Origin: Hyphomonadaceae bacterium | GTDB lineage: Bacteria; Pseudomonadota; Alphaproteobacteria; Caulobacterales; Aquidulcibacteraceae | DNA: 52,096 bases | NCBI GenBank assembly: GCA_019753175.1 | Contig: JAIELK010000025.1 | Coordinates: 1-52,096, forward strand | Direction of reading: 5' to 3' | Shown here: positions 19,447 to 51,869 of the stretch, piece by piece | How the letters are laid out: each line of letters starts with the position of its first letter | Numbering within the stretch: position 1 is the stretch's first letter | Notes under the pieces: model-generated | What the model was told of the DNA's origin: nothing | Databases searched by the model: none | The model's input: only the letters and a program-made list of their open reading frames with translations | Translations under genes and position numbers: made by a program

Positions 19447-19527
19447 GCCAGTCCTCGCTTGCCTGCGCCACCACCATCCGGCCCAGCCCTCGCGCCAACG
19501 CGCTCTCCTTCTCCTCGCACGTCTATA

Positions 19528-21396: not shown

Positions 21397-21402
21397 CGCA
21401 GA

Positions 21403-23357: not shown

Positions 23358-23373
23358 TTCGAAGTGCGCGGTA

Positions 23374-24039: not shown

Positions 24040-24052
24040 CACTAAGCTACTG

Positions 24053-25366: not shown

Positions 25367-25568
25367 TGAATACGCCAGAGTTCAGCATCACTGACGGGGG
25401 TACCGCCGCCTTCTGCTGAACCTGCAACCTACAAAATGAGTTCGGTAGAAGCACGCGCATCGCTGATGCGGCGACGACGACCACGACAGACTGACCGAAT
25501 GTAATGACTGCGACTGCACGTCATGCCGACATGTCTCCGCTGTGGCTGGACAAGGTAAAATCTTTGAC

Positions 25569-28849: not shown

Positions 28850-28865
28850 TTTGTTGGTGAACGTC

Positions 28866-29093
28866 ATGCACATTGACAATACTTGGAAGACGAGCGGTGT
28901 TGTCGTCTTCGCAGATGCCTCGAAGGAAGCGACCGATGCTGCCGAGCTAGCCGCTTCCTTGAGTTTGCCTTCAAAGAGCGCCGGTCAACCGTGGTTCCGC
29001 ATCAGCGCTGCTTTGCACCCCAGTGGTGCTGCGAAACTGCGGGAACATGCGATCCGCATGTTCAAACCGCATCTGCGCCGATCGACTTCTTGA
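28866..29093 (+). pseudogene. C-terminal remnant of a GT2 glycosyltransferase
   Basis: The 75-codon frame has no transferase core, but its sequence lines up without gaps with the last part of the GT2 protein at 26891. Shared residues include the tryptophan near the start, then A-E-L/I-E-L, L-S, A-G, F-R, R-E and the ending KPHLR (IRMFKPHLRRST here, IRTYKPHLRAT there). I conclude that a second copy of that transferase gene lost its N-terminal 240 or so codons. Its TGA overlaps the TTG start of the next transferase, so the remnant may still be translated as a coupling leader. Confidence 0.65.
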
Positions 29094-30076: not shown

Positions 30077-30079
30077 AAC

Positions 30080-32430: not shown

Positions 32431-32475
32431 AGATCCTGTCGTTAAGTGCTGTGCTTTGTGGGGCGTGATCGGGTC

Positions 32476-34032
32476 ATGATCACCCACTTCTCTGAACTGC
32501 CCGCAGACTTTGACTGCAGCCAGCATCCCATAGTCGTGGGGTCAGGCCCCGTAGGTCTTGTGATTGCCCGTCGCTTCTCTGAGCTCGGCCGAAGAGTAGT
32601 TGTCTTCGAAGCGGGCGAAGCCCAACCAACGCCAACCGGTCGCGACTGTCTCAACGTGATCTTTTCCGAACGAAGGCTGCCGGGTACCTCCATCGGCCGT
32701 GCACGCCAACTTGGTGGAGGTCTGAACTTGTGGGGTGGTCAGCTTGCGCGTCCGCACCGAACTGAGTTCGCTGACATCTTGCCATTTGCGAACGGAGACT
32801 GGCTTGAACGGTATTTCTTAACAGCCGAGAGACTGCTTGGGCAGGAAAAGAGCGTTAGCAGCTCTCCGCGTGAAATCGACCGGCTGGCGACTACACTCAC
32901 CCACCACGAACTCGATCTTGTACCGACGTCGTGGATACGGACTCCAAAGTGGCCGCATCGGATCTGGGATGCGCTGCAGCGTGATCAAAATGTGATTATC
33001 GTTCTGGGCGCGACAATCTCTGGCCTGGCGCTCGACGCAGCACGCCGCCGAGTCACCGCTGTGAACATATCGTCCACAGATGGGCGAAGACGGAGGTTTG
33101 CCGCTTCTTCTGTGATTATCGCCGCCGGCACCATTGAGTCTGTCCGCATCCTGCTTCAGCCTGGCGACGAGGGCCTGACCCAGCCATGGCAGGATCTGCC
33201 GTGGCTGGGGAGAGGCTTCTGCGAACACCTCGACAGCGCCGTTGCTACTGTCGGGGTAAAGCGACAGCCTTTGATCAATGACCTCTTCGACCCAGTCTAC
33301 GACCATGGAGTGAAGCGCACATACAAATTGTTCGGCTCGACCACCCTGCAAGACGGCCAAAAGCTTTCCGGGGTATTGATGCTTAGCTTGCCTGGCAACA
33401 TTCGCAACGCACTTGCTGAAACCCGAATGCTAATCCGCAGTCTCACCCCATCGGCCGCCCTCGCAAAATCCCCAGCAGTTGTAAGAGCCCTGACCAATTC
33501 CGCCATCCAGATAGGTCCATTGGCGTGGCGCTATTTGAGGCATAAGCGGCTCGGTACAATTCTGAACGGCTCAGCGACGATCAGAGCTTCGATCGAACAG
33601 CCCGTGCGCTGGCCCAACCGAATTCGTCTGGTCGATGATTTCGATCCCTCAGGCCTGCGGCGGGTACAATTGGACTGGCGCACAGGAGAAGAAGAGGGGC
33701 ACGTTTTCTTGTCGCTGGCCAAGAGAATCTGCGGATGGCTGAATGAACGCGGCTCGGGAGAAGCGCACTTAGAGACAGCTCTCGTCAGTGACGCTACCGC
33801 CTTTGCCGCACAAGCAGACGACGGCCTTCACCATTCCGGCGGCGCTAAGATGGGCGCGCACGCCAGCAACAGCGTGGTTTCCCATGAGCTAGAAGTCCAT
33901 ACTACGCGCGGGCTGTATGTCTGCGGCGCAGCCGTCTTTCCGAGACCCGGCTACGCCAATCCGACGTTGACCGCGGCGGCTCTGGGTGTGCGATTGGCTG
34001 AGCATCTTGCGACTACGAGGAGTACTTCCTGA
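32476..34032 (+). CDS. GMC-family FAD-dependent oxidoreductase
   Basis: A 518-residue flavoprotein. The N-terminal FAD motif is PIVVGSGPVGLVIARRFSEL, followed by VFEAG. The segment ARQLGGGLNLWGGQL matches the second GMC signature region, and the active-site part HHSGGAKMG contains the usual catalytic histidine. FPRPGYANPTLTAAALG forms the C-terminal FAD contact. GMC enzymes oxidise alcohol groups, often of sugars. The gene is adjacent to an aldo/keto reductase gene with no space between them, so the pair may oxidise and re-reduce a sugar hydroxyl or act on one linked intermediate. ATG 32476 fits the fold; GTG 32446 is an alternative. Confidence 0.87.
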   Translation: MITHFSELPADFDCSQHPIVVGSGPVGLVIARRFSELGRRVVVFEAGEAQPTPTGRDCLNVIFSERRLPGTSIGRARQLGGGLNLWGGQLARPHRTEFADILPFANGDWLERYFLTAERLLGQEKSVSSSPREIDRLATTLTHHELDLVPTSWIRTPKWPHRIWDALQRDQNVIIVLGATISGLALDAARRRVTAVNISSTDGRRRRFAASSVIIAAGTIESVRILLQPGDEGLTQPWQDLPWLGRGFCEHLDSAVATVGVKRQPLINDLFDPVYDHGVKRTYKLFGSTTLQDGQKLSGVLMLSLPGNIRNALAETRMLIRSLTPSAALAKSPAVVRALTNSAIQIGPLAWRYLRHKRLGTILNGSATIRASIEQPVRWPNRIRLVDDFDPSGLRRVQLDWRTGEEEGHVFLSLAKRICGWLNERGSGEAHLETALVSDATAFAAQADDGLHHSGGAKMGAHASNSVVSHELEVHTTRGLYVCGAAVFPRPGYANPTLTAAALGVRLAEHLATTRSTS

Positions 34033-39402: not shown

Positions 39403-40810
39403 CATCGCAGTCTCTATTGCCGCCATAACTGCGCTACTCATGGTGAACGCCATTGACCCGCTCCTGATTGCGGCATCCGGCGGCGTTCTCATTCTCGCTA
39501 TTGTCGTGTTGTGGCGGAGCGATGAAGTTCCGATCCTGCTCTTGCCGTTCGGGCTCCAATGGGTCGCCGTGGTGACAAAGCCCATCCAGGCTACGCTCAC
39601 GGCGACGCCGCTGGACAGCCTCTCCGAACGCGGCGCGGCTCTGACGCCCGTCGCTTGGTTTGCTCTCGCCGCGCTCGCGCTCCTCGCGCTCGGCATGCGC
39701 GCCGGCATCGGTCCCGTCGGGCCTCGCCACGGCGTCCGTCTCACGCGCGAGGTGGTTGTGTTGCCTCAGTCCCTCGTGGTCACCGCCTCTCTCGCGGCCA
39801 TCGCCGGCGGTCACGCCATTGATCTCGTGGCCTATAGTTTTGGTCCGGCCGTCCAAGCTGCATTAGCGCTGGCGAACATCCGCTTAGCCGGCATCTTCGC
39901 TCTCACGCTCTGGTGTGTGCTTACTGGGCGACAGGCAGGACTGCTTGCTGCGGTTATCGGGTTCGAAATCATCTTTGGCATGACTGGCTTCTTTGGGGGA
40001 TTCAAGAGCGCGCTCCTCGTTTTCTTGATCGCCGTTGTCGCTTCATTCCCGCGCCTCCGGCCCATCAACATGATTTTAGGTGTCGTGGCCTTCTTGCTGC
40101 TAATCTTCACCGCTGTGTTCTGGTCGGCGATCAAGCCTGACTATCGGGCATTCCTGAACGATGGCACGGGCGAGCAGATCGCGGTTCAACCAATGTCTGA
40201 TCGCATTGCCTATCTCAACGGCGCCGCTCAGAACTTTGAGCAGCCCGATTTCGAACGCGGCGTCGAAGCGCTTTTGTCACGGCAAAGCTACATCGATTTC
40301 CTTGCACAGACAGTCGCTTATGTGCCAGCCAATCGCGCCCATGAAAACGGGGCTCGCACGATTGAAGCGGTGCGGCACGTTCTCACGCCGCGTGTCCTGT
40401 TTCCGGACAAACCCTCCATAGCACATGACACGGATGTGACGTCTCGTTACACTGGCCTCTCGTTCAATTTGGCACAAACCACATCTATTAGCATCGGCTG
40501 GCTCGGCGAGCTCTACATCGACTTCTCTTGGGCTGGTGCGCTTCTTGGGGCTTTCATTCTCGGGTGCATTATCGGTTGGATCGCACGCCTCTTCATCAGC
40601 TATGAGGGCGCTCCCTTGATAGCCAATTTCGCCATCGCCGTGACTGCGATGCTGCCTTTTGCTATTTTTGAGATCCCGCTCATCAAACTGTTCGGCGCCG
40701 CGCTGACCACACTGGGCGTCCTTCTTGTTGTACAGCGATTGATCGTTCCCTGGGTGCTGTCGGTTCTCGGGGTTCGACCCTCAAGCCGAGCCCGTGCTCG
40801 CACAACATGA
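39386..40810 (+). CDS. polysaccharide polymerase-like membrane protein (Wzy type)
   Basis: A 474-residue integral membrane protein with about ten to twelve hydrophobic segments. A large non-membrane loop lies at about residues 250-355 (starting IKPDYRAFLNDGTGEQ), as in O-antigen ligase/polymerase proteins. Late motifs TTSISIGWLGELYIDFSWAGALLGAF resemble the conserved C-terminal part of Wzy-like EpsG/oligosaccharide polymerases. Sequence conservation in this family is low, so the call rests mainly on topology and context. A Wzy polymerase normally works with a Wzx flippase, which is absent here, while an ABC exporter is present. Confidence 0.75.
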   Translation: MRTALSIAVSIAAITALLMVNAIDPLLIAASGGVLILAIVVLWRSDEVPILLLPFGLQWVAVVTKPIQATLTATPLDSLSERGAALTPVAWFALAALALLALGMRAGIGPVGPRHGVRLTREVVVLPQSLVVTASLAAIAGGHAIDLVAYSFGPAVQAALALANIRLAGIFALTLWCVLTGRQAGLLAAVIGFEIIFGMTGFFGGFKSALLVFLIAVVASFPRLRPINMILGVVAFLLLIFTAVFWSAIKPDYRAFLNDGTGEQIAVQPMSDRIAYLNGAAQNFEQPDFERGVEALLSRQSYIDFLAQTVAYVPANRAHENGARTIEAVRHVLTPRVLFPDKPSIAHDTDVTSRYTGLSFNLAQTTSISIGWLGELYIDFSWAGALLGAFILGCIIGWIARLFISYEGAPLIANFAIAVTAMLPFAIFEIPLIKLFGAALTTLGVLLVVQRLIVPWVLSVLGVRPSSRARARTT

Positions 40811-42003
40811 TAGGAAACAACAAGCAACCGCCAGCACCGCTCAAGATTGTCCATGCACTTGCATCGATCGACGACCCCGCCGCGGGCCCCTCACAGAGCG
40901 TGCCCGCGTTGGCGTCGTCCCTCGCCCTTACTGGCGCCGAGGTGACGGTTCACGCGCTTCAGGGTTGGCGGACGACCGGAAGTGATTCAACGAGTGTCCC
41001 AGGCGTGCATGTCGAACGTCATGCGTTGGATCTGGGTCCGTTTGGTCGCTTGTTCGCAGCGTCCGCATCGATGCGCGCGGCGATCCTGCGCGCGGCAGCC
41101 TGCTCCGACATTGTCCACACGCACGGTCTTTGGCTTGCGCCTAATTTCTATCCGGCCGCGGCCATCAAACATCAGGCGGCGCGGGCGAAGATGGTTCTGT
41201 CTCCACGGGGAATGCTGGGCGTCGAAGCGCTCGCTATATCGAATCGGCGCAAACGGCTCGTCTGGATGCTTGCGCAGAGAGACGCAGCCGTGCGCGCGCA
41301 TTGTCTCCACGCGACAGCGGAAAGTGAGCTTGCTGAGATCCGAGCTCTTGGGTTGCGCAACCCCGTGGCGGTGATTCCCAACGGCATAGAGCTTCCGCCC
41401 CTACGCCCCCAAACAATGCGAGCGGAGCGGGAGCGTGTCGTCCTCTCGCTCGGTCGCCTGCACGCAAAAAAGGGCCTTGATCGATTGATCACGGGATGGG
41501 CTCGCATCGAGCGGGACTTTCCTGAGTGGCGACTCAGGATCGTCGGCCGCTCCGAACAAAGCCACGCAGACCAACTAAAGACGCAAGTTAGAAAGCTTAA
41601 ACTGCAGCGCGTGTCGGTTGAAGGTCCGCTTTACGGCCGCGACAAAGCCAAGGCCTATTGGAGCAGCGACGTGTTTGTGCTGCCGTCGCTCAATGAAAAC
41701 TTCGCTATGACAGTCGCTGAAGCGCTGGCCCACGGCGTTCCGGTTATCTCCAGCCAAGGCGCGCCTTGGTCTGGACTCGTCCGAGAAGGATGCGGCTGGT
41801 GGGTGCACGCCTCACCCGACAGCCTAGCTGAAGCGCTTGCAGGTGCGATGCGCCTCGATGACTCACAACGCCTTATGATGGGTGAACTCGGCCGCGCATG
41901 GATGGCGCGCGACTTTTCCTGGGACAGCGTCGCGAAGCGCATGACTGACGTGTATTGCTGGCTCGCACGCGGCGGCGCATGTCCTTCAACAGTCTTCCCA
42001 TGA
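40807..42003 (+). CDS. glycosyltransferase, GT4
   Basis: A 398-residue GT-B protein. LKIVHALASIDDPAAGPSQSVPALASSLAL at the N-terminus, DIVHTHGLWLAPNFYPAA and KMVLSPRGMLGVEALAIS belong to a GT4 subfamily frequent in polysaccharide loci. The donor domain has VLSLGRLHAKKGLDRLI and NENFAMTVAEALAHGVPVI. ATG overlaps the polymerase stop by 4 bases and the gene is coupled to the acyltransferase gene in the same way. Confidence 0.92.
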   Translation: MIGNNKQPPAPLKIVHALASIDDPAAGPSQSVPALASSLALTGAEVTVHALQGWRTTGSDSTSVPGVHVERHALDLGPFGRLFAASASMRAAILRAAACSDIVHTHGLWLAPNFYPAAAIKHQAARAKMVLSPRGMLGVEALAISNRRKRLVWMLAQRDAAVRAHCLHATAESELAEIRALGLRNPVAVIPNGIELPPLRPQTMRAERERVVLSLGRLHAKKGLDRLITGWARIERDFPEWRLRIVGRSEQSHADQLKTQVRKLKLQRVSVEGPLYGRDKAKAYWSSDVFVLPSLNENFAMTVAEALAHGVPVISSQGAPWSGLVREGCGWWVHASPDSLAEALAGAMRLDDSQRLMMGELGRAWMARDFSWDSVAKRMTDVYCWLARGGACPSTVFP

Positions 42004-42575
42004 ACGAACCAGTCTCCCGCGCGAACACCGGCGCCCCGTCGGTCGATGTTCGGGCGAACCGGACCGCACGCAAATGGACACGCGGAGAGAACGTCCGCCG
42101 CGCCGTCTGGGAAACTCTGCGGGGACCGCTCTTCGCTTGGACGCCCCGACCGCTTTGGGGTTGGCGTCGCGCAGTGTTGCGTGCGTTTGGGGCGCGTGTC
42201 GGTGCTGATGCGCACATCCACCCGACTGCGTGTATCCAGATTCCTTGGAACTTGACGATTGGCGATTTCGCCGCCATCGGCGACGGCGCCATCATCTACA
42301 ACCTGGGGCGCATCGAAATCGGCGCTGGCGCAACCATCTCGCAATACGCCCATTTGTGCGCCGGCTCTCACGATTTCCGCGATCCGGCTATGCCGCTGTT
42401 GAAGCTGCCGATCAGGATTGGCGCAGGCGCATGGATCTGCGCCGACGCCTTCGTGGGGCCCGGCGTCACCATAGGCCCAGGCGCTGTCATTGGCGCACGC
42501 GCCGTCGCTGTTCGTGATGTGGACGCCGACGTCGTCGTTGCCGGCAATCCTGCGCGCGATATCGGCAAGCGATGA
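42000..42575 (+). CDS. left-handed beta-helix acyltransferase (WcaF-like)
   Basis: A 191-residue protein. After a basic N-terminus containing WETLRGPLFAWTPRPLWGWRR (about residues 36-56), as in WcaF-type acetyltransferases, come hexapeptide repeats: GARVGADAHIHPTACIQIPW, LTIGDFAAIGDGAIIYNLG, IEIGAGATISQYAHLCAG, then IGAGAWICADAFVGPGVTIG. SHDFRDPAMPLL carries the usual catalytic histidine. It should O-acetylate a sugar of the repeat unit. Translation is coupled to both neighbours by ATGA overlaps. Confidence 0.9.
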   Translation: MNEPVSRANTGAPSVDVRANRTARKWTRGENVRRAVWETLRGPLFAWTPRPLWGWRRAVLRAFGARVGADAHIHPTACIQIPWNLTIGDFAAIGDGAIIYNLGRIEIGAGATISQYAHLCAGSHDFRDPAMPLLKLPIRIGAGAWICADAFVGPGVTIGPGAVIGARAVAVRDVDADVVVAGNPARDIGKR

Positions 42576-43423
42576 CAGGGCTTCTTCCCGTATCCGTCAT
42601 CATTCCAGTCAGAAACGAAGAGCGTATGCTGCCGGAATGCCTGGCCCGTCTTCGGCGCTTCCCAGAGGTCATCGTCGTCGATTCTGGAAGTACCGATCGA
42701 ACTGCCGAGATTGCACGTGGCGCAGGAACGACCGTCCTCGACTTCAAATGGAATGGACTTTTCCCCAAGAAGCGCAATTGGGTTCTGATGAACCACGCCA
42801 TCTCCAATCCATGGGTTCTGTTTCTCGATGCCGACGAATTGTTGACCGATGAGTTTTGCGACGCGCTTGACGGGGCGATCCGAAGCCAACGTTGCGTCGG
42901 ATACTGGCTCAATTACACCAACTACTTTCTGGGCCGGCCGCTCCGTCATGGCGTCGCTCAAAGGAAGCTTGCCGTGTTCAAGGTCGGCGCGGGTCTCTAC
43001 GAGCGCATCGATGAAGACCGTTGGAGCAATCTCGATATGGAGGTGCATGAGCATCCCATAATCGATGGACCTGTCGGCGAGATTAAGGCGCGCATAGATC
43101 ATCGCGACGACCGCGGCGTTTTGCGTTTCATTGATCGCCATCGCGACTATGCACAATGGGAAGCAAAACGCGTCTTGGCGCTGGAATCGGCACAACCAGG
43201 ATCGCCGGTGAAATTGACCCCGCGACAGCGCCTAAAATACCGATCTCTCCGACGCTGGTGGTTTCCATGGTTCTACTTTCTTGTTCAGTACATTTTTAAG
43301 TTCGGCGTGTTTGACGGTCACGCGGGCCTGCAATACGCCCTCTACAAGTTCTGGTACTTTGCGACGGTTCGTTTACTCCTGCTCGAGAACGACGTACCGG
43401 CACGTCGCGCCGGTCGCAGCTGA
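42572..43423 (+). CDS. glycosyltransferase, GT2 (KdtX/WaaE-like)
   Basis: A 283-residue GT-A enzyme: VSVIIPVRNEERMLPECLARLRRFPEVIVVDSGSTDRT at the N-terminus and FLDADELLTDEF with the metal-binding aspartates. The layout, with KKRNWVL and the aromatic C-terminus WWFPWFYFLVQYIFKFGVFDGHAGLQYALYKF split by two short membrane-associated helices, resembles the WaaE/KdtX-like family that glycosylates lipid-linked or core sugars. Its TGA shares one base with the ATG of the nucleotidyltransferase gene (TGATG), which links the polysaccharide operon to the lasso cluster. Confidence 0.9.
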   Translation: MTGLLPVSVIIPVRNEERMLPECLARLRRFPEVIVVDSGSTDRTAEIARGAGTTVLDFKWNGLFPKKRNWVLMNHAISNPWVLFLDADELLTDEFCDALDGAIRSQRCVGYWLNYTNYFLGRPLRHGVAQRKLAVFKVGAGLYERIDEDRWSNLDMEVHEHPIIDGPVGEIKARIDHRDDRGVLRFIDRHRDYAQWEAKRVLALESAQPGSPVKLTPRQRLKYRSLRRWWFPWFYFLVQYIFKFGVFDGHAGLQYALYKFWYFATVRLLLLENDVPARRAGRS

Positions 43424-44706
43424 TGGGCAAAAGAGCGACACACTTTGAATCATCCCCTCTGAAGCTCATGCGCGCGCGCGACGACGCCTGCGCGCGGCTT
43501 TTGCTGCTGATCGCCAAGGTCTCGATAACGCCCGCGCAGCTCGAGGATGTGCGTCAGCTTGCGGGTCAGATCGCGAATTGGAGCGAGTTCGCCCTGATTG
43601 CGGCGGATAAGTTCATCGCCCCTCTGGCGCATCGGCATTTACAAGAGGCTGCATCGGATATCATGCCGCCAAGCGCATTGCAGGCGCTTGCAACGCGCGC
43701 CCGACGTTCAGTGTTTGAGACGCTGCGCGTCGTTGCGGCGCACATCGATTTTCATAAGACCTGCATTGCGTCTACCGGCGCGCGCCATGCCTATTTGAAA
43801 GGCGTCGCTCTGGCCCAGGTCTATTACCGCGATGTCGGTGAACGGTTCTGCCGCGACATCGACGTTCTCGTCGCGGCGAGCGACATTCCGCGCGTCATTT
43901 CGATCGCTCGCGCGGCAGGCTATCGCGTCCTGGTTACCGAACTCGCATCCCCAATCTACGCCGATGAGCTGAAGGACATTGAGTTCCTATGCCGCCACTC
44001 GGATGTGATAACTCTTATCAGCAAAGATGGCGTCGCCATTGAAATCCATCGAAAACTGGACAAACTGAGCGTCGGTTTCGATCTGGAGCAGGCGCTGAGG
44101 AGCGCCGTCAGCGTCACTATCGCCGACATCACGGTCCGCGTCCTCGCTCCCAGCTATCACTTCGCTTACATTTGCTATCATCATTCGCGCCACTTCTGGT
44201 CGCGCCTGCATTGGCTGGCCGATCTCGACGCGATGGTGCGTGCGCCTTCGTTCGATCGGGTCGAAATCCTTGCCTTGGCCGATACGATCGGCATTCGACC
44301 TACGCTCGAGGCGGCCCTCGAATTCAATCGCCTCACTGCTCGGCCAGGCCTTTGGGGCGGGGTCGTCCCCGAAGATGCTGCGGGCGGCCAATTTCTGAAG
44401 GCCTGCCTCCTCAATCTCGAGGGCGGTTTGGATTTCGAAGAGTCGCTGCGCGGAAGCATGATGTACCAGGATTTCATCTCGCCTTGGCAGGTCGAGAGCG
44501 AAAAACGCCTTCACTTTTGGGCCCGTTCATGGGCGCGCCGTTTAAGACCCAGCGTTACGCAGCATTTCGCAAGACGCTACCCGCAGCCACTGCACTGGCT
44601 CTACACGCTTGAGAATGCGATGCAACTCGCCAAGAATGGCATCGCCCTCGCTTGGTCGCCATCGGCGAGGCCGGGTTCGCCGCAGCCACCGCACACGACG
44701 TCCTAA
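43423..44706 (+). CDS. lasso-cluster nucleotidyltransferase-family protein
   Basis: A 427-residue protein of the NTP_transf_5 family. The core is RHAYLKGVALAQVYYRDVGERFCRDIDVLV (about residues 120-150, split by a variable Gly region), where the DID pair should bind metal, followed by VAIEIHRKLDKLS. Members of this family occur in lasso-peptide clusters that also carry an HPr-type kinase. One, PsmN of the pseudomycoidin cluster, was reported to add hexose to the phosphorylated C-terminal serine (recalled, not looked up). The next genes encode exporter, leader-binding protein and precursor, so this gene is best placed in the lasso pathway. It also overlaps the last polysaccharide gene by one base. 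Confidence 0.8.
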   Translation: MGKRATHFESSPLKLMRARDDACARLLLLIAKVSITPAQLEDVRQLAGQIANWSEFALIAADKFIAPLAHRHLQEAASDIMPPSALQALATRARRSVFETLRVVAAHIDFHKTCIASTGARHAYLKGVALAQVYYRDVGERFCRDIDVLVAASDIPRVISIARAAGYRVLVTELASPIYADELKDIEFLCRHSDVITLISKDGVAIEIHRKLDKLSVGFDLEQALRSAVSVTIADITVRVLAPSYHFAYICYHHSRHFWSRLHWLADLDAMVRAPSFDRVEILALADTIGIRPTLEAALEFNRLTARPGLWGGVVPEDAAGGQFLKACLLNLEGGLDFEESLRGSMMYQDFISPWQVESEKRLHFWARSWARRLRPSVTQHFARRYPQPLHWLYTLENAMQLAKNGIALAWSPSARPGSPQPPHTTS

Positions 44707-44714
44707 GAGGACCC

Positions 44715-46505
44715 ATGGCAAGGCCCCATGAAATCCTCTCCGTCTGGCGACGGGTTCTTGCGCTCCTAAGCGCTTCGTGTCCGCGCCTCAGCGCAGCCGT
44801 AGCGCTTCTGACCCTGCTCGAAGCAGGAGCAAGCGTCGGCGTGCTCTACCTGATCAAGTTGCTTGTCGATGCAATATCGCTCCAACTCAGCGCGCCGGGC
44901 GCCACCGGCGACATCATCACGCCCTTGCTGGTCACCGGCGCTGGCCTCATCGGCGCCGTGCTGCTTCAGAACATCACCAGCTTCCTGCGCATGCGCCAAG
45001 GCCTAGCTGTCAGCGATTATGTCGACCAGCAAATCCATGACCGCTCGATCGCGGTCGATCTCGAATTCTACGAGAGCCCACGCTATTTCGATGCGCTTGA
45101 GCGCGCGCGCCAGGGCGGCGCGCAACGCCCCGCCCAGATCGTGTCGAGCGCCATCCTCGCCTTCAAGGCGATGATCATTCTGGGCGCCATCGTGGTTCTG
45201 ATCGCCGGGATAGACCCCTGGCTCTTTCCGATCCTGTTGCTTCCCGTCGCCCTGGCGCTCGCCATCCGGCTCTTTTTCACCCGCAAACTGTTCGACTGGC
45301 GCATGGCGCGCGCACAGCTAGAGCGGCGAACGGGCTATCTCGATTGGCTGCTCACCTCCGCCCATCACGCCAAGGAATTACGCCTGAACCAATTGGGCGG
45401 ACACTTCCGCGATCAGTATCGCGCTTTGAGAGCCGATCTACGCCAAGGTCAAATCGCCATCGAACAGTCGCGTCTGCTCGCCGAGTTCGTCGTCTCTGTC
45501 CTGGGCACGATCGTCTTCATCCTCGCCAGCGCCTGGCTGTTGCACGGCGCCCTGAACGAAGGTCGCGCGATCGGCGACGTCGTGCTCTTCGTCCTGTTGC
45601 TGCGCCGTGCGGAAGCCGGCGGCACCGAACTTGTCGGCAACGTCTCCAAATTGGTTGACGATCACCTCTATCTGCAACGCTTGTTCGAGTTCCTCTCGAT
45701 CAAGCCGATCATCACCAGACCCTGTTCGCCATTGGCCATCCCTACCGAGGTGCGCGAGGGCGTACGGCTTGAGAACGTGTCGTTCCGTTATACGCAGGAC
45801 CAGCCCGAGGTCTTGAACAACGTCTCCCTCCAGATAAAGCCCGGCCAGGTCGTGGCGCTTGTGGGCGAAAACGGATCGGGTAAGACCACGCTGATCAAGA
45901 TCCTGACCCGCCTCTACGATCCATCGAACGGCGCGGTAACGCTGGACGGCCAGGATATCCGAGCCTTCGACCCCGAAGCATACCGGCGCTTGTTCAGCGT
46001 GATCCTCCAAGACTATGCAACCTATGCCGCAACAGTGGCCGATAACATCCGCTTCGCTGACATCCGCCTGAACAGCGCCGGCGCCATCGAAGCGGCGGCG
46101 AAGCGCGCTGGGGCTGCCGATTTCATAGAACGCTTGCCAAAGTCGTACCAAACGTCGCTGACGCGGCTCTTCGACGACGGTCACGACCTCAGCATCGGCC
46201 AATATCAGCGCCTTGCGCTCGCCCGCGCGTTTTATCCGCAATCAAAATTCATCGTTCTCGATGAACCCACCAGCGCAGTGGATCCCAAGGCGGAGTTCGA
46301 ATTGTTCGAGAACTTCCGCGAGCGCCTTGCAGGACGGGGCGCATTGATCATCAGCCACAGATTGTCCACTGTGCGCCAAGCGGATTACACTTATGTTCTG
46401 GGGGGAGGGCGGATCGTCGAACACGGCTCGCACGCCTCTTTGATCGAGGCTCAGGGCGCTTATGCTGAGTTATTCGAGAAACAGGGACGCCTTTACCGGA
46501 AATGA
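44715..46505 (+). CDS. lasso-peptide ABC exporter, fused permease-ATPase (D protein)
   Basis: A 596-residue half-transporter. About 320 residues of membrane domain with six spans come first. The ATPase part has Walker A ENGSGKTTLIK, the Q loop in SVILQDYATYAATVADNI, signature LSIGQYQRLALARAF, Walker B FIVLDEPTSAVDP and the switch His in IISHRLST. There is no N-terminal peptidase C39 domain, as expected for McjD-like lasso exporters, where leader removal is done by B2. ATG 44715 has AGAGGA 5 bases upstream. It would export the mature lasso peptide and may give self-immunity. Its stop overlaps the B1 start by ATGA. Confidence 0.9.
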   Translation: MARPHEILSVWRRVLALLSASCPRLSAAVALLTLLEAGASVGVLYLIKLLVDAISLQLSAPGATGDIITPLLVTGAGLIGAVLLQNITSFLRMRQGLAVSDYVDQQIHDRSIAVDLEFYESPRYFDALERARQGGAQRPAQIVSSAILAFKAMIILGAIVVLIAGIDPWLFPILLLPVALALAIRLFFTRKLFDWRMARAQLERRTGYLDWLLTSAHHAKELRLNQLGGHFRDQYRALRADLRQGQIAIEQSRLLAEFVVSVLGTIVFILASAWLLHGALNEGRAIGDVVLFVLLLRRAEAGGTELVGNVSKLVDDHLYLQRLFEFLSIKPIITRPCSPLAIPTEVREGVRLENVSFRYTQDQPEVLNNVSLQIKPGQVVALVGENGSGKTTLIKILTRLYDPSNGAVTLDGQDIRAFDPEAYRRLFSVILQDYATYAATVADNIRFADIRLNSAGAIEAAAKRAGAADFIERLPKSYQTSLTRLFDDGHDLSIGQYQRLALARAFYPQSKFIVLDEPTSAVDPKAEFELFENFRERLAGRGALIISHRLSTVRQADYTYVLGGGRIVEHGSHASLIEAQGAYAELFEKQGRLYRK

Positions 46506-46795
46506 TGGGGGTTAAGTTGGACGAGGTCAAACCAGGAACATTCTTTCAGCGCGTGGAACTCCCGTGTAGCCGCATCGACGACGAGATCGTGTTTTTTGAC
46601 CACAATACCGGAAAATATTACGCCACAGGGCCGGTTGGCGCCGACATCTGGGAGTTTCTTGCTGATCGCCAAACTCTTTCGGCGATATGTGACCATCTAA
46701 TGATGAATTACGACATCAATCGCTCCACCTGTGAGGCAGAAGTCTATGAATTTCTAAGGGAAATGGTCGATGCAGGCGTTGTTCGCATCATTTGA
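46502..46795 (+). CDS. lasso-peptide leader-binding protein (B1, PqqD-like)
   Basis: A 97-residue protein of the PqqD type, the RiPP recognition element: IDDEIVFFDHNTGKYYATGPVGADIWEFLADRQTL is the diagnostic strand-helix part, followed by helices in AEVYEFLREMVDAGVVRI. B1 binds the precursor leader and delivers it to the B2 protease. It overlaps the exporter gene by ATGA and lies 123 bases before the precursor gene. Two ATGs in a row occur at 46502 and 46505. Confidence 0.92.
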   Translation: MMGVKLDEVKPGTFFQRVELPCSRIDDEIVFFDHNTGKYYATGPVGADIWEFLADRQTLSAICDHLMMNYDINRSTCEAEVYEFLREMVDAGVVRII

Positions 46796-46918
46796 GAGTG
46801 CGCAGGAAAACAACTTTTTAAAAGACTCGCTTGCGATCGACAATATTTCACAATTTTTCCCTTGCCTTCCCGTCGGCTGAGAGATTAACCTCGATGCACT
46901 CCAGAGTAAGGGGCAGTC
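46796..46918. promoter_or_regulatory. AT-rich leader region before the lasso precursor gene
   Basis: This 123-base gap is the AT-richest stretch of the cluster (AACTTTTTAAAAGAC, then CAATATTTCACAATTTTT). Such gaps before precursor genes often hold a separate strong promoter. TTGCGA at about 46831 or TTGCCT at about 46862 could be a -35 box, but no partner -10 is convincing. AAGGGG precedes the precursor ATG by 6 bases and should be a strong ribosome binding site. Confidence 0.4.
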
Positions 46919-47059
46919 ATGGACAGTCAGAAAAAATCTTGGGTGACGCCTAAGTTGGAAATGCTACCGGTTGAAGAGACCATGTCCGGGGCGCTTCCAT
47001 TCTCAATTGAGACCGTTGCGAAGCAAACTGGCGAACCGGTGCATTACTATCGGTCGTAG
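46919..47059 (+). CDS. lasso-peptide precursor
   Basis: A 46-residue precursor. The leader (residues 1-22) contains W8-V-T-P11-K-L13, the WxxPxL/YxxPxL motif bound by B1, and ends with T21-M22, which puts the conserved threonine at position -2. The predicted core (residues 23-46) begins SGALPFSIE, so a macrolactam between Ser1 and Glu9 gives a nine-residue ring. Core residues 10-24 form the loop and tail and end in VHYYRS. The last residue, Ser24, is the expected target of the adjacent HPr-like kinase, as in paeninodin, which also ends in VHY-x-S (from memory). By hand the neutral monoisotopic mass is about 2618.3 Da for the lasso form and 2698.3 Da with one phosphate. Gene-finders often miss such short genes. 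Confidence 0.9.
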   Translation: MDSQKKSWVTPKLEMLPVEETMSGALPFSIETVAKQTGEPVHYYRS

Positions 47060-47082
47060 ACCTATTACTATCGGTCGTAGAC
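47043..47082 (+). repeat. 21-bp-period tandem duplication over the precursor stop codon
   Basis: The 19-base string ATTACTATCGGTCGTAGAC occurs at 47043-47061 and again, without mismatch, at 47064-47082. The period of 21 bases keeps the reading frame, so the codons Tyr-Tyr-Arg-Ser and TAG appear twice. The first copy ends the precursor. The second copy is untranslated unless the first stop is read through. Confidence 0.9.
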
Positions 47083-47090
47083 TCTAAGGT

Positions 47091-47126
47091 AAAAAGCGAT
47101 CGCCGAGTAAATGGCGGTCGCTTTTT
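47091..47126. terminator. bidirectional intrinsic terminator
   Basis: AAAAAGCGATCGCC (47091-47104) pairs with GGCGGTCGCTTTTT (47113-47126) around an 8-base loop, with one G-T pair. The A and T tracts on the two sides let the hairpin work on both strands. It lies between the precursor gene and the convergent kinase gene, whose stop codon lies in the T tract at 47125-47127. Confidence 0.9.
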
Positions 47127-48042
47127 ATTTCTGTCCAAATCTTGCTGCGATAAGATTCCCGACGTTATCGATTGAGCCAATGTCAGCCTTGCGGGACAGG
47201 GTCCAAACCTGAATCGATGTTGCTAAGTTTAACGCGACTTTAGCAATCGACTTCTGATTATCAAAAATCGCCGCGTATTCCGGTCTGTATAAAGCTCCTA
47301 GAATAGTGGTATAGGCGACACGGCCTCGAACCGGTTCTAAACTTAACGTATTGCCCCAGTCTAGGCGAACTAGGTGGCGCAATATGGGACTTGCTGGACA
47401 AAATCGCTCCGCAGAAATTGCATGAAATTTGTTCGAACGCGTCAGGTCCCGTGTGAGATTTTCACTGCTCCGATTTAGCTTTGTCAGAGCGCTCTGCCAA
47501 AGTTTGACGGTGTTCAGGCCAGATGCGAGTGTAAAGGCGTCCCCACCTTCCTGAACGACAGCAACATCATCGCAGATTAGCGGCCAACCGAATTTCTGGT
47601 TCATGAACGCTGCAGTCGTGGATTTGCCAGCCTCCGACTCTCCCGTGAAGGCAACACCACCACAAGGTGCGGCGATAGCACTCACATGCAGAGGAACCAT
47701 GCCACGCTGATGTACAATAGCGCCGAGTGAGGCTCCGTACAAAAAAGTACGAACATCCTCATCGGAGGCGAGAGGATCTTGGTCGAAAACGATCTCAGAG
47801 CCATCTCTAACGAGAAAGCGTCCGATTCCCTCGAAGCGCAGCACGCACGTCTTCTCCCTCGCTTCGATCCACCGGGCCCTCGTGACGCTGCCTGCAAGAC
47901 CAACATCCACATGCCCCCGCGAGATTGTGACTTCGTCGGGCGCTCGTGTGTCTGACGACGGGGTCGCCGCCGGCAATTCAATGTCGGACGCTACATTCAG
48001 CCCGTAAATCCGGTATCGATGCAACTCTTTTGCTATCGCCAA
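47125..48042 (-). CDS. HPr-kinase-like lasso-peptide kinase
   Basis: A 305-residue protein related to HPr serine kinases. The P-loop is AFTGESEAGKSTTAAFMN (about residues 130-147) and the metal-binding aspartates follow in PLICDDVAVVQEG. GLNTVKLW resembles the next family motif. Similar kinases in lasso clusters (PadeK, ThcK) phosphorylate the C-terminal serine of the precursor. The precursor here ends in Ser, which supports the same function. TTG 48042 is preceded by GAGGGGAC at a good distance. It is encoded on the minus strand with B2 and converges on the precursor gene. Confidence 0.87.
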   Translation of the reverse strand: MAIAKELHRYRIYGLNVASDIELPAATPSSDTRAPDEVTISRGHVDVGLAGSVTRARWIEAREKTCVLRFEGIGRFLVRDGSEIVFDQDPLASDEDVRTFLYGASLGAIVHQRGMVPLHVSAIAAPCGGVAFTGESEAGKSTTAAFMNQKFGWPLICDDVAVVQEGGDAFTLASGLNTVKLWQSALTKLNRSSENLTRDLTRSNKFHAISAERFCPASPILRHLVRLDWGNTLSLEPVRGRVAYTTILGALYRPEYAAIFDNQKSIAKVALNLATSIQVWTLSRKADIGSIDNVGNLIAARFGQK

Positions 48043-48051
48043 GCTGTCCCC

Positions 48052-48501
48052 TCATTGGTTATCATTAGAACCATAAACTGCGACAGGGATATGATCGGCT
48101 CGCCCCTCTCTGCCCACAATTTCGATACCGCTGCTCAGCACCCAGGCGTGAGCATCAAGCGATAACTTTTCTCTTCCTCGACGCACCCCCAAGACTAAGA
48201 CGTGAGGCAATCGGCGTCGCTCCAACATCGCACGCGCCGATAGGGCCAACATGAGGCACGTAAACATACCTTTGAACCGACGACTCAATATCTGATGCGC
48301 CCACACGACATCAGCGACCGGAGCTGCGCTCTGCTCGTCCATAACCATGGCATGCTGTGCAGCGTCCAGAGGCAAAACCTCGCCCATCTGGTAACGCCAG
48401 CGACGATAAGGCGTCAGCCGAACGCGCATGAAAGCAATCAATGCAAAAATGAGCGCTTCGCCGACCAACAACAAACGCTTCGCAGTCTTCTTCACCTCCA
48501 C
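48052..48501 (-). CDS. lasso-peptide leader protease (B2, transglutaminase-like)
   Basis: A cysteine protease that removes the leader after the Thr-containing site. MFTCLMLALSARAMLERRRLPHVLVLGVRRG contains the catalytic Cys, and LDAHAWVLSSGIEIVG the catalytic His and nearby Asp; the quoted pieces are the hallmarks of lasso B2 proteins. An N-terminal hydrophobic stretch LLLVGEALIFALIAFM is typical. The start is uncertain: TTG 48519, GTG 48501 and GTG 48495 share the frame, and I give GTG 48501, with GGAGG 11 bases upstream. It lies 9 bases before the kinase gene and is divergent from the cyclase gene. Confidence 0.9.
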   Translation of the reverse strand: MEVKKTAKRLLLVGEALIFALIAFMRVRLTPYRRWRYQMGEVLPLDAAQHAMVMDEQSAAPVADVVWAHQILSRRFKGMFTCLMLALSARAMLERRRLPHVLVLGVRRGREKLSLDAHAWVLSSGIEIVGREGRADHIPVAVYGSNDNQ

Positions 48502-48595
48502 TACTCCCCAAACCTCCAACGCGACCTCAAACGTTTGTGGATATTAGTTGGCCGATATCTTACCTTCAAGCCTGTACACAAGAGGTTATGACATC

Positions 48596-50473
48596 GTGAG
48601 CGGCATCTTCGGTCGCGTAGAGCTGGATGGTCGCCCAATCGATCCCACCCGCTTTCTCTCAGCCGCCGATTGTGTTCGTCCGTTCGGAGGCGACAATACG
48701 AGTACATGGATAGACGGCCCAACCGCTGCGGCTCGCCATTTGCTGGAGATTGGCGCCCAGTCACGTTTCGAGTCGGCGCTCGAAGTCAAAAACGAACTCT
48801 TGGTCGTGGCCGACGCGATACTCGACAACCGCGGCGAACTCGCCCGGAGTCTCTGCATCAGCGAAACTGATCTAAAATCCCTGGCCGACACCGAGCTCAT
48901 TCGCTTGAGCTATGAGCGCTGGGGAGAACGATGCGCTCAACGCCTCGTGGGCGACTTTGCCTTTGCGGTCGTGTCTCCCAGAACTGGTCATATCCGTTTA
49001 TTTAGGGATCATATTGGGTCTCGCCCGCTTTTTTGGGCGCAAAGGCAACAGACTTTTCTTTTCAGCTCCAGCATAGGCGCGTTGGTCTCAAACAGCGAGT
49101 GGCGCTGGCGGATCTCTTCAAGCGTTATTGCTGAGTACCTGCTTTGTCCGTTTGTGCCCGTCTCTCGCCCCTTCTTCGAGGACGTCCATGCGGTGCCGCC
49201 GGGCGGCATGGTCGCCATGACGGCAGGTCAGGTGACGAGCGAACTTTGGTGGCGTCCGCATGACATCGCGAGAGCGCCCCCTGTACGAGCGCAACACGTC
49301 GTTGAGGCAAGCCGTTGTGCACTCGACCAAGCTGTGGCGGCTCGATGCGACACGCCTTACCCGGTCGCCGCACATTGCAGTGGCGGGCTTGACTCAACCG
49401 GCGTAACGGCTGTGGCAGCGAAGCTGCTGCGCGCCGAAGGAAGATCGCTGCAAAAAGCCTACGCTTGGTCACCGCCAATTTCGGATGCGTATCCGACGCG
49501 AGGCAACGACGAGCGGGTCCGGCTCGAAACTTTTTCGACGCAGCAGCAAGTAGTAGTGGAGTTTGGGCTTGCCGACGCTCAGCACAACATCGCACTGCTA
49601 CACCGCCCGATGGAATTTGAGGGAGAGGCTGACCTCAGCGATGAGATTCCAACTCTCGAAGCTGCAGGGAGAGATCGCGTGCGCGTTCTGCTCTCAGGCT
49701 GGGGTGGGGATGAGGCATTTTCAGCGCACGGCTTCGGTTACTTGGGTTATACCTTGTTGCGCGGTCGCCTACGAAGCGCTCGCGACTTCGGCCATTCATT
49801 CACGCGCTCACTTAAGAACCCAAGGACGCTTATGCGCCTTTTCTGGCATCAAATTCTGCACCCGATGCTTCCAGACCCACTCTATTCGCTACTGAGCCCG
49901 CACCGAAACGGCGGCGTTCAAAGCTATATTTCCCCATATTTGTCAGCGTATCCGCTCAACCGCTGGAGCCCCGTCGCCAAATTCGGACTTGACCCGCGCC
50001 AAAACGTTGCGACCCACTTGAGCGTCGGTCACCTTGCCATGCGAATGTGTTCGTGGGCGGCCTGGGCCGCACCACACCGATTCCAGTACAGATATCCCCT
50101 CACTGACAAGCGATTGCTCGAGTTTCTCTTGTCCTTGCCTGCTGACCAATTACTTCTAGATAATCGCCCGCGGGGGTTAGCGCGGGCAACGCTCGCCGAT
50201 TGCTTGCCTACTGATGCGTCGAAAAATGACGTGGCCAATGAAGCCTTGCGCATGGCGGTCAGAGACGCTTCGTGGCGCATCCTCGCAGAGCGGGTTCGAC
50301 AAGGACACTACAGCAAAGAGTGCCCCTGGGTCGACATGAGGGCGTTTCGATCTGCAGCTGCGCACCCTTTGCAGAGCGCGACGCCGTCGTACGTTTCCAC
50401 CTTTTCTAGCGTATTCGCCGCAGCCAGGGTCTTTCACTTATTCGAGCGCGCCGATCAACATGGCTGGCTCTAG
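48596..50473 (+). CDS. lasso-peptide cyclase (C protein, asparagine-synthase-like)
   Basis: A 625-residue protein that would adenylate the side chain of core Glu9 and join it to the Ser1 amine. The start GTG 48596 gives SGIFGRVELDGRP, the asparagine-synthase N-terminus without the glutaminase Cys2, as expected for a cyclase that does not use glutamine. AHCSGGLDSTGVTAVA is the PP-loop and LLSGWGGDEAFSAHGFGYL the second ATP motif. It is divergent from B2 and on the plus strand like the precursor, so it probably has its own promoter in the gap at 48502-48595. A TTG at 48548 would add 16 residues. Confidence 0.9.
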   Translation: MSGIFGRVELDGRPIDPTRFLSAADCVRPFGGDNTSTWIDGPTAAARHLLEIGAQSRFESALEVKNELLVVADAILDNRGELARSLCISETDLKSLADTELIRLSYERWGERCAQRLVGDFAFAVVSPRTGHIRLFRDHIGSRPLFWAQRQQTFLFSSSIGALVSNSEWRWRISSSVIAEYLLCPFVPVSRPFFEDVHAVPPGGMVAMTAGQVTSELWWRPHDIARAPPVRAQHVVEASRCALDQAVAARCDTPYPVAAHCSGGLDSTGVTAVAAKLLRAEGRSLQKAYAWSPPISDAYPTRGNDERVRLETFSTQQQVVVEFGLADAQHNIALLHRPMEFEGEADLSDEIPTLEAAGRDRVRVLLSGWGGDEAFSAHGFGYLGYTLLRGRLRSARDFGHSFTRSLKNPRTLMRLFWHQILHPMLPDPLYSLLSPHRNGGVQSYISPYLSAYPLNRWSPVAKFGLDPRQNVATHLSVGHLAMRMCSWAAWAAPHRFQYRYPLTDKRLLEFLLSLPADQLLLDNRPRGLARATLADCLPTDASKNDVANEALRMAVRDASWRILAERVRQGHYSKECPWVDMRAFRSAAAHPLQSATPSYVSTFSSVFAAARVFHLFERADQHGWL

Positions 50474-50577: not shown

Positions 50578-51138
50578 CTAGTACGTCGCCAGCGCGTCGC
50601 GCCAAGCGATGACCTGTGACCGCAAGGGCTCATCATCGGGCGTATCACCAGCCAAAAGAAACTCCTGTATGGGCTTCGCTGGATGCACACACCTATAAAT
50701 TTCCCCGAACTTAAGCCACACCGGAACCCGACGCGAGCGTAGCACGCTAAGGGCTGAAACCGCTTCGGCGCTGCGATAATCGAAAAACGGTCGAACCGGA
50801 ATGCCGACGACATAAAGCCGCCTCAGGACATTAGTCCTATCAGCTCCCTCTTTAAGCTGAAACAAGATGCCGAGCCGATTGGGGCGATGAATATCTGCAA
50901 GTGTGCTAAGTTTCCGCCACAAACAATGGTAGTCACGACAAATATCAAAACGCGACGCGTAGATGCTGCATCCGCTTGTCGAGCAATGCTGGCAAATGAC
51001 TCCGGCCGGTTTTTTGAATTGCTCGGTGTCGATGGCTAGCAATTCACAGCACGCGGTGCAGTCCCCACATTCCCGATCGGGCACTAACCGCAAGACCTCG
51101 GGGTCTGACGCTGGCTGTCGCAATCTAATCCTCGCCAC
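50578..51138 (-). CDS. cysteine-cluster protein (YkgJ-like)
   Basis: A 186-residue protein with CGDCTACCELL near residue 24 (CxxCxxCC) and further cysteines in ICQHCSTSGCSIY and DICRDYHCLW. This spacing matches the YkgJ/UPF0153 family of putative zinc- or iron-binding proteins with eight cysteines. The C-terminal half has no recognised motif. Its function is unknown. The start GTG 51138 is the longest reasonable one. It is divergent from the oxygenase gene with 131 bases between them, and a link with the oxygenase, for example in metal supply, is only a guess. Confidence 0.82.
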   Translation of the reverse strand: MARIRLRQPASDPEVLRLVPDRECGDCTACCELLAIDTEQFKKPAGVICQHCSTSGCSIYASRFDICRDYHCLWRKLSTLADIHRPNRLGILFQLKEGADRTNVLRRLYVVGIPVRPFFDYRSAEAVSALSVLRSRRVPVWLKFGEIYRCVHPAKPIQEFLLAGDTPDDEPLRSQVIAWRDALATY

Positions 51139-51269
51139 CCACGACCACCAAAGCCTATAAGCAACACTGGTTCCCCGCCCCAGTCAACTCAGTGAGGTCG
51201 CTAGGTGCTTTACAAGAAGATATCTAGTCAGAACTACAAGAGACTGGGCGCTCATTGGGAGCATCGCAT

Positions 51270-51869
51270 ATGATACGCCATTTGCCTTACATGGTGATCA
51301 ACGACTTCCTGCCTTTGGATCTGCGCGACCGGCTCTGGCTGCACACGCTCGCCCACGAAGGCGCGTTCGTTGACACAGAGGTCTATGCAGAAGCTGAGGC
51401 CAGATCGGCCACGGACATTCGTCGGTCACTTCATTGCCCGGACGGTTTGGGAGCTCTCAAAAAATTGTTCAAATGCTCGATTGAGGCGCGAACCGATGAC
51501 ATACTTTCAGCCTTGGGGATCATGACGTTCTCGCCTAGCAAAATGGAACTACAGTTGTCCGCCCATGGGCACCTCGGGTTCTACCGCCCACATGTCGACA
51601 CCATCAGGGCGAGCATCCGACAACCAAGCGATCGTATTGTCACAATCGTCTATTATCTGCACAGCCGCCCCAAGCGGTTTACAGGCGGCGAGCTTGCGAT
51701 CTTTCCTTTAGGGGGTGGTGCGCCCGTAGTGGTCGAGCCAATTGACAACCGGCTTATCGCATTCCCGTCTTTTGCACGCCATGAAGTCAGGACCGTGCAA
51801 TGCGAAGATCCTTCAGACTTCTCACAGTTTCGGTTCTCCGTGAATTGTTGGATTCACCGCACCCGTTGA
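51270..51869 (+). CDS. 2-oxoglutarate/Fe(II)-dependent oxygenase
   Basis: A 199-residue prolyl-4-hydroxylase-like oxygenase. The iron ligands are seen as HxD in FYRPHVDT and the distal His in SFARHEVRTV. The 2-oxoglutarate-binding basic residue is probably in FRFSVN, about ten residues after that His. TGGELAIFPLGGGAP is the usual strand between them. ATG 51270 has GGGAG 8 bases upstream. Such enzymes hydroxylate amino-acid side chains or small molecules. Near a lasso cluster it could hydroxylate the peptide, but a separate gene and an unrelated substrate are equally possible. Confidence 0.85.
   Translation: MIRHLPYMVINDFLPLDLRDRLWLHTLAHEGAFVDTEVYAEAEARSATDIRRSLHCPDGLGALKKLFKCSIEARTDDILSALGIMTFSPSKMELQLSAHGHLGFYRPHVDTIRASIRQPSDRIVTIVYYLHSRPKRFTGGELAIFPLGGGAPVVVEPIDNRLIAFPSFARHEVRTVQCEDPSDFSQFRFSVNCWIHRTR

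Follow-up and report, generated by a model that had tools for sequence, protein, structure and literature searches.

A predicted phospho-lasso peptide gene cluster beside a polysaccharide locus in a Hyphomonadaceae bacterium

Organization of the gene cluster

Contig JAIELK010000025.1 of a Hyphomonadaceae bacterium (assembly GCA_019753175.1) carries, in the 52,096-nucleotide stretch analysed here as a whole and referred to as the window, seven genes which together form a putative biosynthesis cluster for a phosphorylated lasso peptide. The original prediction, made from the sequence alone, had placed such a cluster at 43423-50473 in an apparent alphaproteobacterium. The seven open reading frames (ORFs) were found at or very near that span, in the order N, D, B1 and A on the plus strand, K and B2 on the minus strand, and C on the plus strand. 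ORF analysis, Pfam and NCBIfam searches and motif alignment confirmed this order, the strands and the intact key motifs, and the host belongs to the order Caulobacterales, in agreement with the proposed alphaproteobacterial origin. The cluster consists of the following features:

43423..44706, plus strand: N, nucleotidyltransferase (NTP_transf_5); PF14907 at 133.7 bits (cut-off 31.2), KG...DID motif intact
44715..46505, plus strand: D, MsbA-like ATP-binding cassette (ABC) exporter; PF00005 ABC_tran at 108.8 bits (cut-off 25)
46502..46795, plus strand: B1, PqqD-type leader-binding protein (RiPP recognition element, RRE); PF05402 at 57.9 bits (cut-off 23.4)
46919..46984, plus strand: leader of precursor A, MDSQKKSWVTPKLEMLPVEETM; WxxP motif (WVTP), T at -2
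46985..47059, plus strand: core of precursor A, SGALPFSIETVAKQTGEPVHYYRS, 24 residues followed by the stop; ring predicted from S1 to E9, Ser at the C-terminus of the tail
47043..47082, plus strand: 21-bp tandem duplication over the final codons of A and its stop; 1.9 copies at 100% match (Tandem Repeats Finder)
47087..47130, plus strand: 18-bp hairpin and T run between the convergent A and K; -25.9 kcal/mol, z -6.6, terminator-like
47125..48042, minus strand: K, HPr-kinase-like precursor kinase; motifs, relatives, kinase tree
48052..48519, minus strand: B2, leader peptidase; NF033537 (lasso B2) at 52.5 bits (cut-off 33), PF13471 Transglut_core3 at 53.5 (cut-off 26)
48548..50473, plus strand: C, asparagine-synthetase-like lasso cyclase; PF00733 at 79.3 bits (cut-off 21), PF13537 at 73.3 (cut-off 25)

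At their junction, the start codon of B1 and the stop codon of D overlap. Although the reading frame of D extends back to a TTG at 44652, homology begins only at about residue 30 of that frame (the 62% identity with D of the related locus L072 begins at residue 31), so that the ATG at 44715 is the likelier start. The end of K was corrected to 47125. A simple terminator scan did not list the 18-bp hairpin at 47087..47130. The GC content is 0.51-0.54 over A-K-B2 and higher towards both N and D (0.57-0.62) and C (0.56-0.58).

The B2 protein contains the Cys and AHAW motif, its Cys and His being aligned with those of relatives, and C contains the motifs SGGLDST and SGWGGDE. The kinase K scores 13.1 bits with PF07475 (Hpr_kinase_C), below the cut-off of 33.3, and likewise misses the NCBIfam HprK cut-off; a search of PDB sequences and a scan of the genome contigs with K alone gave no match. 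Its identity is nevertheless clear from its relatives (46–47% identity with the L072 kinase) and from the motifs LHVSA, GESEAGKST and CDD, which supply the complete catalytic His-Lys-Asp-Asp set. In an alignment with 17 homologues the catalytic His is replaced by Gln in one (L120). A His-Lys-Asp-Asp motif has been described for lasso precursor kinases (PMC9266682, PMC10368454).

The precursor and its predicted product

Precursor A has 46 residues. It was aligned with four precursors from three sister loci of the same order (L072, L073 and L074; identified by pattern search) and with two from named clusters of Bacillota. Residues K5, W8, P11, E14, L16, T21 and G24 of A are invariant in all seven sequences, and the ninth residue after the predicted cut is either Glu or Asp in every one of them. 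Since the Thr at -2 and the acidic residue 9 hold throughout, we predict cleavage after residue 22 and a nine-residue ring from S1 to E9. The masses near 2618.3 and 2698.3 Da proposed for the product were right, as recomputation for the 24-residue core gave 2618.313 Da for the lasso peptide and 2698.279 Da with one HPO3 added. The C-terminal Ser of A is shared with the L072 precursor and both aligned Bacillota precursors. The 21-bp duplication repeats YYRS and a stop codon in frame behind the stop of A itself, and is possibly the trace of a recent change in the peptide tail.

In the family searches B2 passes the cut-offs of both NF033537 and Pfam, B1 and C pass those of Pfam but stay below those of the lasso-specific NCBIfam models, and K falls short of the HPr-kinase cut-offs. 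Several results weigh against the assignment as a phospho-lasso cluster. B1 reaches only 66.1 of the 80 bits set for NF033536; C scores 230.8 bits against a cut-off of 525 for the lasso cyclase model NF033535 (lasso_lactam_cya), which is nonetheless its best NCBIfam model; precursor A scores 24.1 bits (E 2e-5) with the paeninodin family model NF033524, against a cut-off of 27; and the C-terminal Ser is missing from the sister precursors at L073, where the last residue is Arg, and at L074, where it is Lys in both. The relatives of A fare similarly with NF033524 (L073, 23.1 bits; one of the two L074 precursors, 24.9 bits; L072, no match). On the other side, the gene set is more than a chance assembly, because it recurs complete in three other genomes of the order. 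On balance we assign a probability of roughly 0.75 to the reading that the window encodes the full pathway to a phosphorylated lasso peptide and that this cluster is coupled with the polysaccharide genes beside it.

Relatives and phylogeny

The cluster is rare. A cyclase matching at E < 1e-140 was found in four of 150 genomes of the order, including the window genome (next best match 6.5e-34), and the cluster is present in three of 60 genomes of the family and in one of 30 of the genus. The three sister loci all carry N, D, B1, K, B2 and C together with a precursor. With the window they form a clade of four which is supported at 100/100 in the cyclase tree (46 cyclases) and at 100/99 in the kinase tree (52 kinases), and which in both trees is separate from the Bacillota loci L185 and L186. 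The trees comprise hits of at least 340 bits for C (500–800 residues) or 200 bits for K (shorter than 450 residues, trimmed to the last 330), leave out eight repeat loci (L127-L130, L147, L164, L173, L180), and are without plain asparagine synthetases and HPr kinases. By gene content and trees, the window cluster belongs to a rare, separate and well supported clade of predicted phospho-lasso peptide clusters.

Kinase homologues are widespread in the class, occurring in 23 of 289 genomes at E 0.001. Among 31 kinase places (11 from the order, 20 from the class), tblastn identified both B1 and C nearby in 21, eight of which also have N. Between six and eight lasso-kinase homologues occur in each of four genomes (G033, G095, G162, G260). 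At five of the kinase places examined (L086, L087, L091, L101, L102) no B1 or C match lies nearby. In three other proteobacterial kinase-type lasso loci (L089, L097, L085) a sulfotransferase gene adjoins K on the B1 side. Finally, positions 19161-33703 of plasmid pHALXA01 of Halopiger xanaduensis (L187) contain K-, N-, C-, B2- and B1-like genes, an exporter and a precursor candidate, with a flippase gene nearby; by its gene content, this is a cluster of the phospho-lasso type in a haloarchaeon.

Comparison with known systems

The original prediction considered kinase-containing lasso clusters to be best known from Firmicutes, and set against this the apparent alphaproteobacterial host of the window. 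As a claim of novelty this does not hold, because both SyanK and a full A/B1/B2/C/D/K/N set from Bradymonas have been published, and for the same reason the gene set as such cannot be presented as new to Gram-negative bacteria. Proteobacterial lasso kinases, (poly)phosphorylation of the C-terminal Ser and hexosylated pseudomycoidin are described in PMC8498205 and PMC9266682, and the biochemistry of PadeK, ThcoK, SyanK, BsfK and PsmN is known (PMC8498205, PMC9266682, PMC10368454).

The bsf cluster of Bradymonas sediminis FA350, reported in 2023, contains A, B1, B2, C, D, K and N (PMC10368454), so that all seven gene types are united in one Gram-negative cluster, as in the window. In that study BsfK phosphorylates core Ser3, and B1 accelerates the kinase. 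Compared by description, BsfA ends in Asp and has Ile at -2, whereas A of the window has a C-terminal Ser and Thr at -2. SyanK and SyanA of Sphingobium yanoikuyae represent an alphaproteobacterial kinase lasso cluster in which, as predicted for the window, the C-terminal Ser is the target (PMC8498205, PMC9266682); the descriptions covered do not mention N.

The Bacillota clusters of paeninodin and pseudomycoidin (L185, L186) resemble the window in the leader pattern KKxWxxPxxExL....T..G, the C-terminal Ser, the kinase and a polysaccharide neighbourhood, and pseudomycoidin (L186) also shares N, but they differ in gene order and belong to separate C and K clades. The WxxP leader and C-terminal Ser of A are paeninodin features. 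Membership of the paeninodin family, considered on the basis of the leader, was rejected, as the NF033524 cut-off is missed and the C and K trees set the two apart.

Predicted biosynthesis

From the gene content we infer the following route, together with its phosphorylation site, the group transferred by N and the biological role. B1 would bind the WxxP leader of A, and K would move one or more phosphates from ATP or GTP onto a Ser while the precursor is still linear, with Ser24 at the C-terminus as the likeliest target. B2 would cleave after residue 22, with Thr at -2, and C would adenylate Glu9 and couple it with the Ser1 amine, so that the nine-residue ring closes around the tail. N would modify the phospho-Ser by nucleotidyl or hexosyl transfer, and D would export the product.

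A phosphorylated and possibly sugar-bearing peptide had been foreseen. Phosphorylation stands as the best prediction, while the sugar-bearing part is weakened by the evidence on N. Residues K126, G127, D145 and D147 are invariant in 12 aligned N proteins. Foldseek matches to the N structure model (pLDDT, a predicted local confidence score, 82.9) are weak and none reaches E 0.001; the first eight are nucleotidyltransferases or nucleotidyltransferase-like proteins (E 2.5e-3 to 0.3), no glycosyltransferase fold is found among the 50 matches listed, and a PDB sequence search gave matches only at E above 0.03. The modelled fold leans towards nucleotidyl transfer but is not decisive. It is possible, if less likely than not, that N is a true nucleotidyltransferase producing a peptide activated like a nucleoside diphosphate (NDP) derivative, to which a sugar is added later by, for instance, the neighbouring glycosyltransferases. 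The NTP_transf_5 assignment with its KG...DxD motif and the glycosyltransferase gene that overlaps N would fit, as would the weak model matches, and according to a review, nucleotidylation cannot be excluded for PsmN, so that pseudomycoidin might receive its hexose by an indirect route. On the other hand, only hexosylated forms of pseudomycoidin are described in the literature covered, and the fold matches stay short of E 0.001.

The kinase site is a second point of weakness, as BsfK (PMC10368454) and LppK (PMC13381572) both modify a Ser at position 3. In addition, because the three L073 and L074 precursors (ending in R, K and K) are not Ser-ended although their kinases share the window clade, kinases of this clade may use a site other than the C-terminus. 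The kinase may then target a ring or loop residue (S1, S7 or a Thr), with the rest of the pathway unchanged. We consider this rather unlikely, since a C-terminal Ser is found in A as well as in the L072 precursor, the third core residue of A is Ala, and 18 of 28 precursor pattern matches at loci linked to the oxygenase described below are Ser-ended, some of the other ten being plainly chance ORFs.

Finally, a linear phosphopeptide (LPP)-like pathway, or an exosortase/asparagine-synthetase locus merely resembling lasso synthesis, is highly improbable: K, N, PqqD-like and MsbA-like genes define LPP clusters as well (PMC13381572), C lies below the NCBIfam lasso cut-off and the cyclase tree includes no plain asparagine synthetase, but LPP clusters are described in the same paper as lacking C and using signal peptidase, whereas here B2 passes its lasso cut-off, C has lasso_lactam_cya as its best NCBIfam model, and A has T at -2 and an acidic residue 9.

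Association with polysaccharide genes

Directly upstream of N lies a group of polysaccharide genes:

40807..43423, plus strand: glycosyltransferase, hexapeptide acyltransferase and family 2 glycosyltransferase (GT2); Pfam, relatives beside sister clusters

The stop of GT2 and the start of N share one base. Further upstream, the window starts with putative sugar-nucleotide enzymes, as read mostly from translations, and continues with glycosyltransferases and an ABC-2 type exporter before GT2 and N are reached. The polysaccharide neighbourhood noted in the original prediction is supported by this overlap and by the recurrence of the acyltransferase, both of which had been missed. The glycosyltransferase-acyltransferase-GT2 trio has relatives beside L073 (54–58% identity) and L074 (27–60%), and a relative of the first glycosyltransferase (39%) lies at the edge of L072. 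The acyltransferase gene occurs in 13 of 150 genomes of the order, including all four with this type of cluster, and in the three sister genomes no more than about 7 kb separates it from the cluster; the probability of three out of three by chance, with the window left out, is 4e-4.

A similar tendency was observed with Wzc-like genes. Such a gene was found within 12 kb of six of the 11 other kinase places of the order (G311, G352, G293, G403, G308, G412), the remaining places having it 26 kb off (G362), not near (G317 and twice in G337), or lying on an 8.7-kb contig (G328). Wzc-like genes are common in the order (105 of 150 genomes at E 1e-15), and we estimate the chance of such a neighbour at about 3% per place even with four of them in a 3.5-Mb genome. 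In the class sample, where 22 other genomes bear a kinase, a kinase place and a Wzc-like gene lie no more than 30 kb apart in at least five; in two of these five (G145, G244) the kinase match is weak. At most three Wzc candidates per genome were scored in the class search and seven in the order search.

Other results tell against a coupling. The window itself fails the Wzc test, as its Wzc-like genes are on other contigs of the genome; the acyltransferase gene is also present in nine of the 150 genomes without the cluster; and GT2, found at E 1e-30 in four of 150, occurs twice with the cluster (window, G352) and twice without it (G310, G367).

An association with polysaccharide genes is not limited to this clade. 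Paeninodins and linear phosphopeptides of Bacilli also accompany such genes, in a role which PMC13381572 calls unknown, and Butyrivibrio lasso clusters include GT2 and EpsH genes (PMC7533575). Among the named clusters, L185 has galU as a neighbour, L187 of Halopiger a flippase gene and L190 of Azospirillum wbaP.

The neighbourhood may alternatively be without functional meaning, both parts being variable genome-island cargo which gathers at the same sites. We give this reading real but lesser weight. Cluster and GT2 are each present in only one of 30 genus genomes and the downstream oxygenase in none of 11 other genus members examined, as expected of islands, and the GC content over A-K-B2 is lower than in both flanks. 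Against this stand the occurrence of the acyltransferase gene next to each of the clade's four clusters, which come from two families, the published links in Bacilli (PMC13381572) and Butyrivibrio (PMC7533575), and the flippase or wbaP genes at the Halopiger and Azospirillum clusters. In our main reading the cluster and the polysaccharide genes are coupled, and the site or partner of the peptide's action is accordingly the cell-surface polymer, in all probability.

More speculatively, the lasso peptide could itself be a building block of a surface polymer: K would create the phospho-Ser, N would convert it into an activated NDP-peptide following the logic of NDP-sugar synthesis, and glycosyl- or phosphotransferases would join this to a glycan, with proline hydroxylation as a further mark. 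This proposal is very unlikely to be correct as it stands. If true, it would explain why K and N keep company with polysaccharide loci in Caulobacterales and, as published, in Bacilli.

Two further observations concern the first 10 kb of the window. A mobile element beside the polysaccharide locus is suggested by two adjacent ORFs at the contig start (2000-5842), a large one and a DUF3363 gene whose match to the MobA/VirD2 relaxases is borderline (23.8 bits against a cut-off of 24.6). Just behind a putative mannose-1-phosphate guanylyltransferase gene, positions 7839-9965 encode a protein of 708 residues whose N-terminal part gives a weak match of TIR type (26.5 bits against a cut-off of 28).

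A prolyl-hydroxylase-fold gene downstream of the cluster

Two further genes follow C:

50578..51138, minus strand: CxxCxxCC protein between C and the oxygenase, presumably YkgJ-like; no Pfam match
51255..51869, plus strand: Fe(II)/2-oxoglutarate oxygenase of prolyl-hydroxylase fold (here termed OGO), possible accessory gene; PF13640 at 64.8 bits

OGO lies 0.8 kb downstream of C and had escaped the original prediction. Its HxD...H and R residues, whose roles we assume, are invariant in six aligned sequences. A profile of six relatives matches prolyl hydroxylases in PDB (4iw3, E 3e-13), and the OGO structure model (pLDDT 84.3) matches PHD2 and the Pseudomonas prolyl 4-hydroxylase (P4H), all 50 matches listed being prolyl hydroxylases. 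The P. putida enzyme (PDB 4iw3/4j25) and human PHD2 share the fold and the HxD...H/R residues with OGO at about 20–24% identity.

With the OGO protein of the window as query, relatives at E < 1e-17 were found in eight other genomes of the class sample and one of the order sample, a count which excludes weaker hits (E 7.5e-5 to 5e-4; two in the class and six in the order, G183 in both), all of them in genomes without a K match. For five of these nine, a kinase place accompanied by further lasso genes is no more than 6 kb away; the remaining four proteins are longer, with extra N-terminal sequence, and have no B2 and C beside them. One of these four (L122, in G016) has distantly related K-like and N-like genes as neighbours but neither lasso B2 nor C, and may represent a related non-lasso phosphopeptide system. 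A scan of GTDB genomes with the OGO profile gave 54 loci; in 24 of these, three or more of B1, B2, C and K are found within flanks of up to 8 kb. C and K scores are strong in 19 of the 24; as four of these seeded the profile, 15 of 50 remain. These numbers are loci rather than genomes, Niveispirillum SYP-B3756 and Methylomonas fluvii contributing two each to the 19. The 19 strong loci span what we take, from the organism names, to be Alpha-, Beta- and Gammaproteobacteria.

OGO is listed only as a possible member of the window cluster, because none of the three sister genomes has a match to it at E 0.001, an opposite-strand gene separates it from C, and the contig ends behind it; these points speak against its inclusion. 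Hydroxylation of a core proline of A (P5 or P18) by OGO is possible but less sure. Core prolines were rejected as a discriminator, as precursors of OGO-free clusters also contain them. The 2-oxoglutarate oxygenase CanE of a Streptomyces canus lasso cluster likewise acts on the linear precursor, but, compared by description, hydroxylates Asp (PMC9266682), whereas OGO has a prolyl-hydroxylase fold. Literature searches, which covered result listings and parts of PMC8498205, PMC9266682 and PMC13352647 but did not extend to the primary papers on proteobacterial kinase clusters, returned no report of a prolyl-hydroxylase-like gene beside kinase-type lasso clusters.

The CxxCxxCC gene was considered as a cluster member and rejected: it has no relative in the 31 kinase loci and a single match (E 0.0044, L146) among 101 other sources. 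Relatives of its product occur in six of 29 other genomes of the genus.

Significance

The window contains a real, complete and rare cluster of a known kind, as far as its sequence allows one to judge, and the chemistry proposed for it is a sound prediction. To a specialist, the recurrent polysaccharide link and the hydroxylase-like neighbour are its most attractive parts. Besides a rare clade of phospho-lasso peptides, the cluster brings a clear and testable product mass. Of wider value are the gene of prolyl-hydroxylase fold, which recurs at lasso clusters of the kinase type in Alpha-, Beta- and Gammaproteobacteria, and the polysaccharide link: the repeated company of such clusters with polysaccharide loci, now in a second phylum, makes the purpose of the peptide directly testable.

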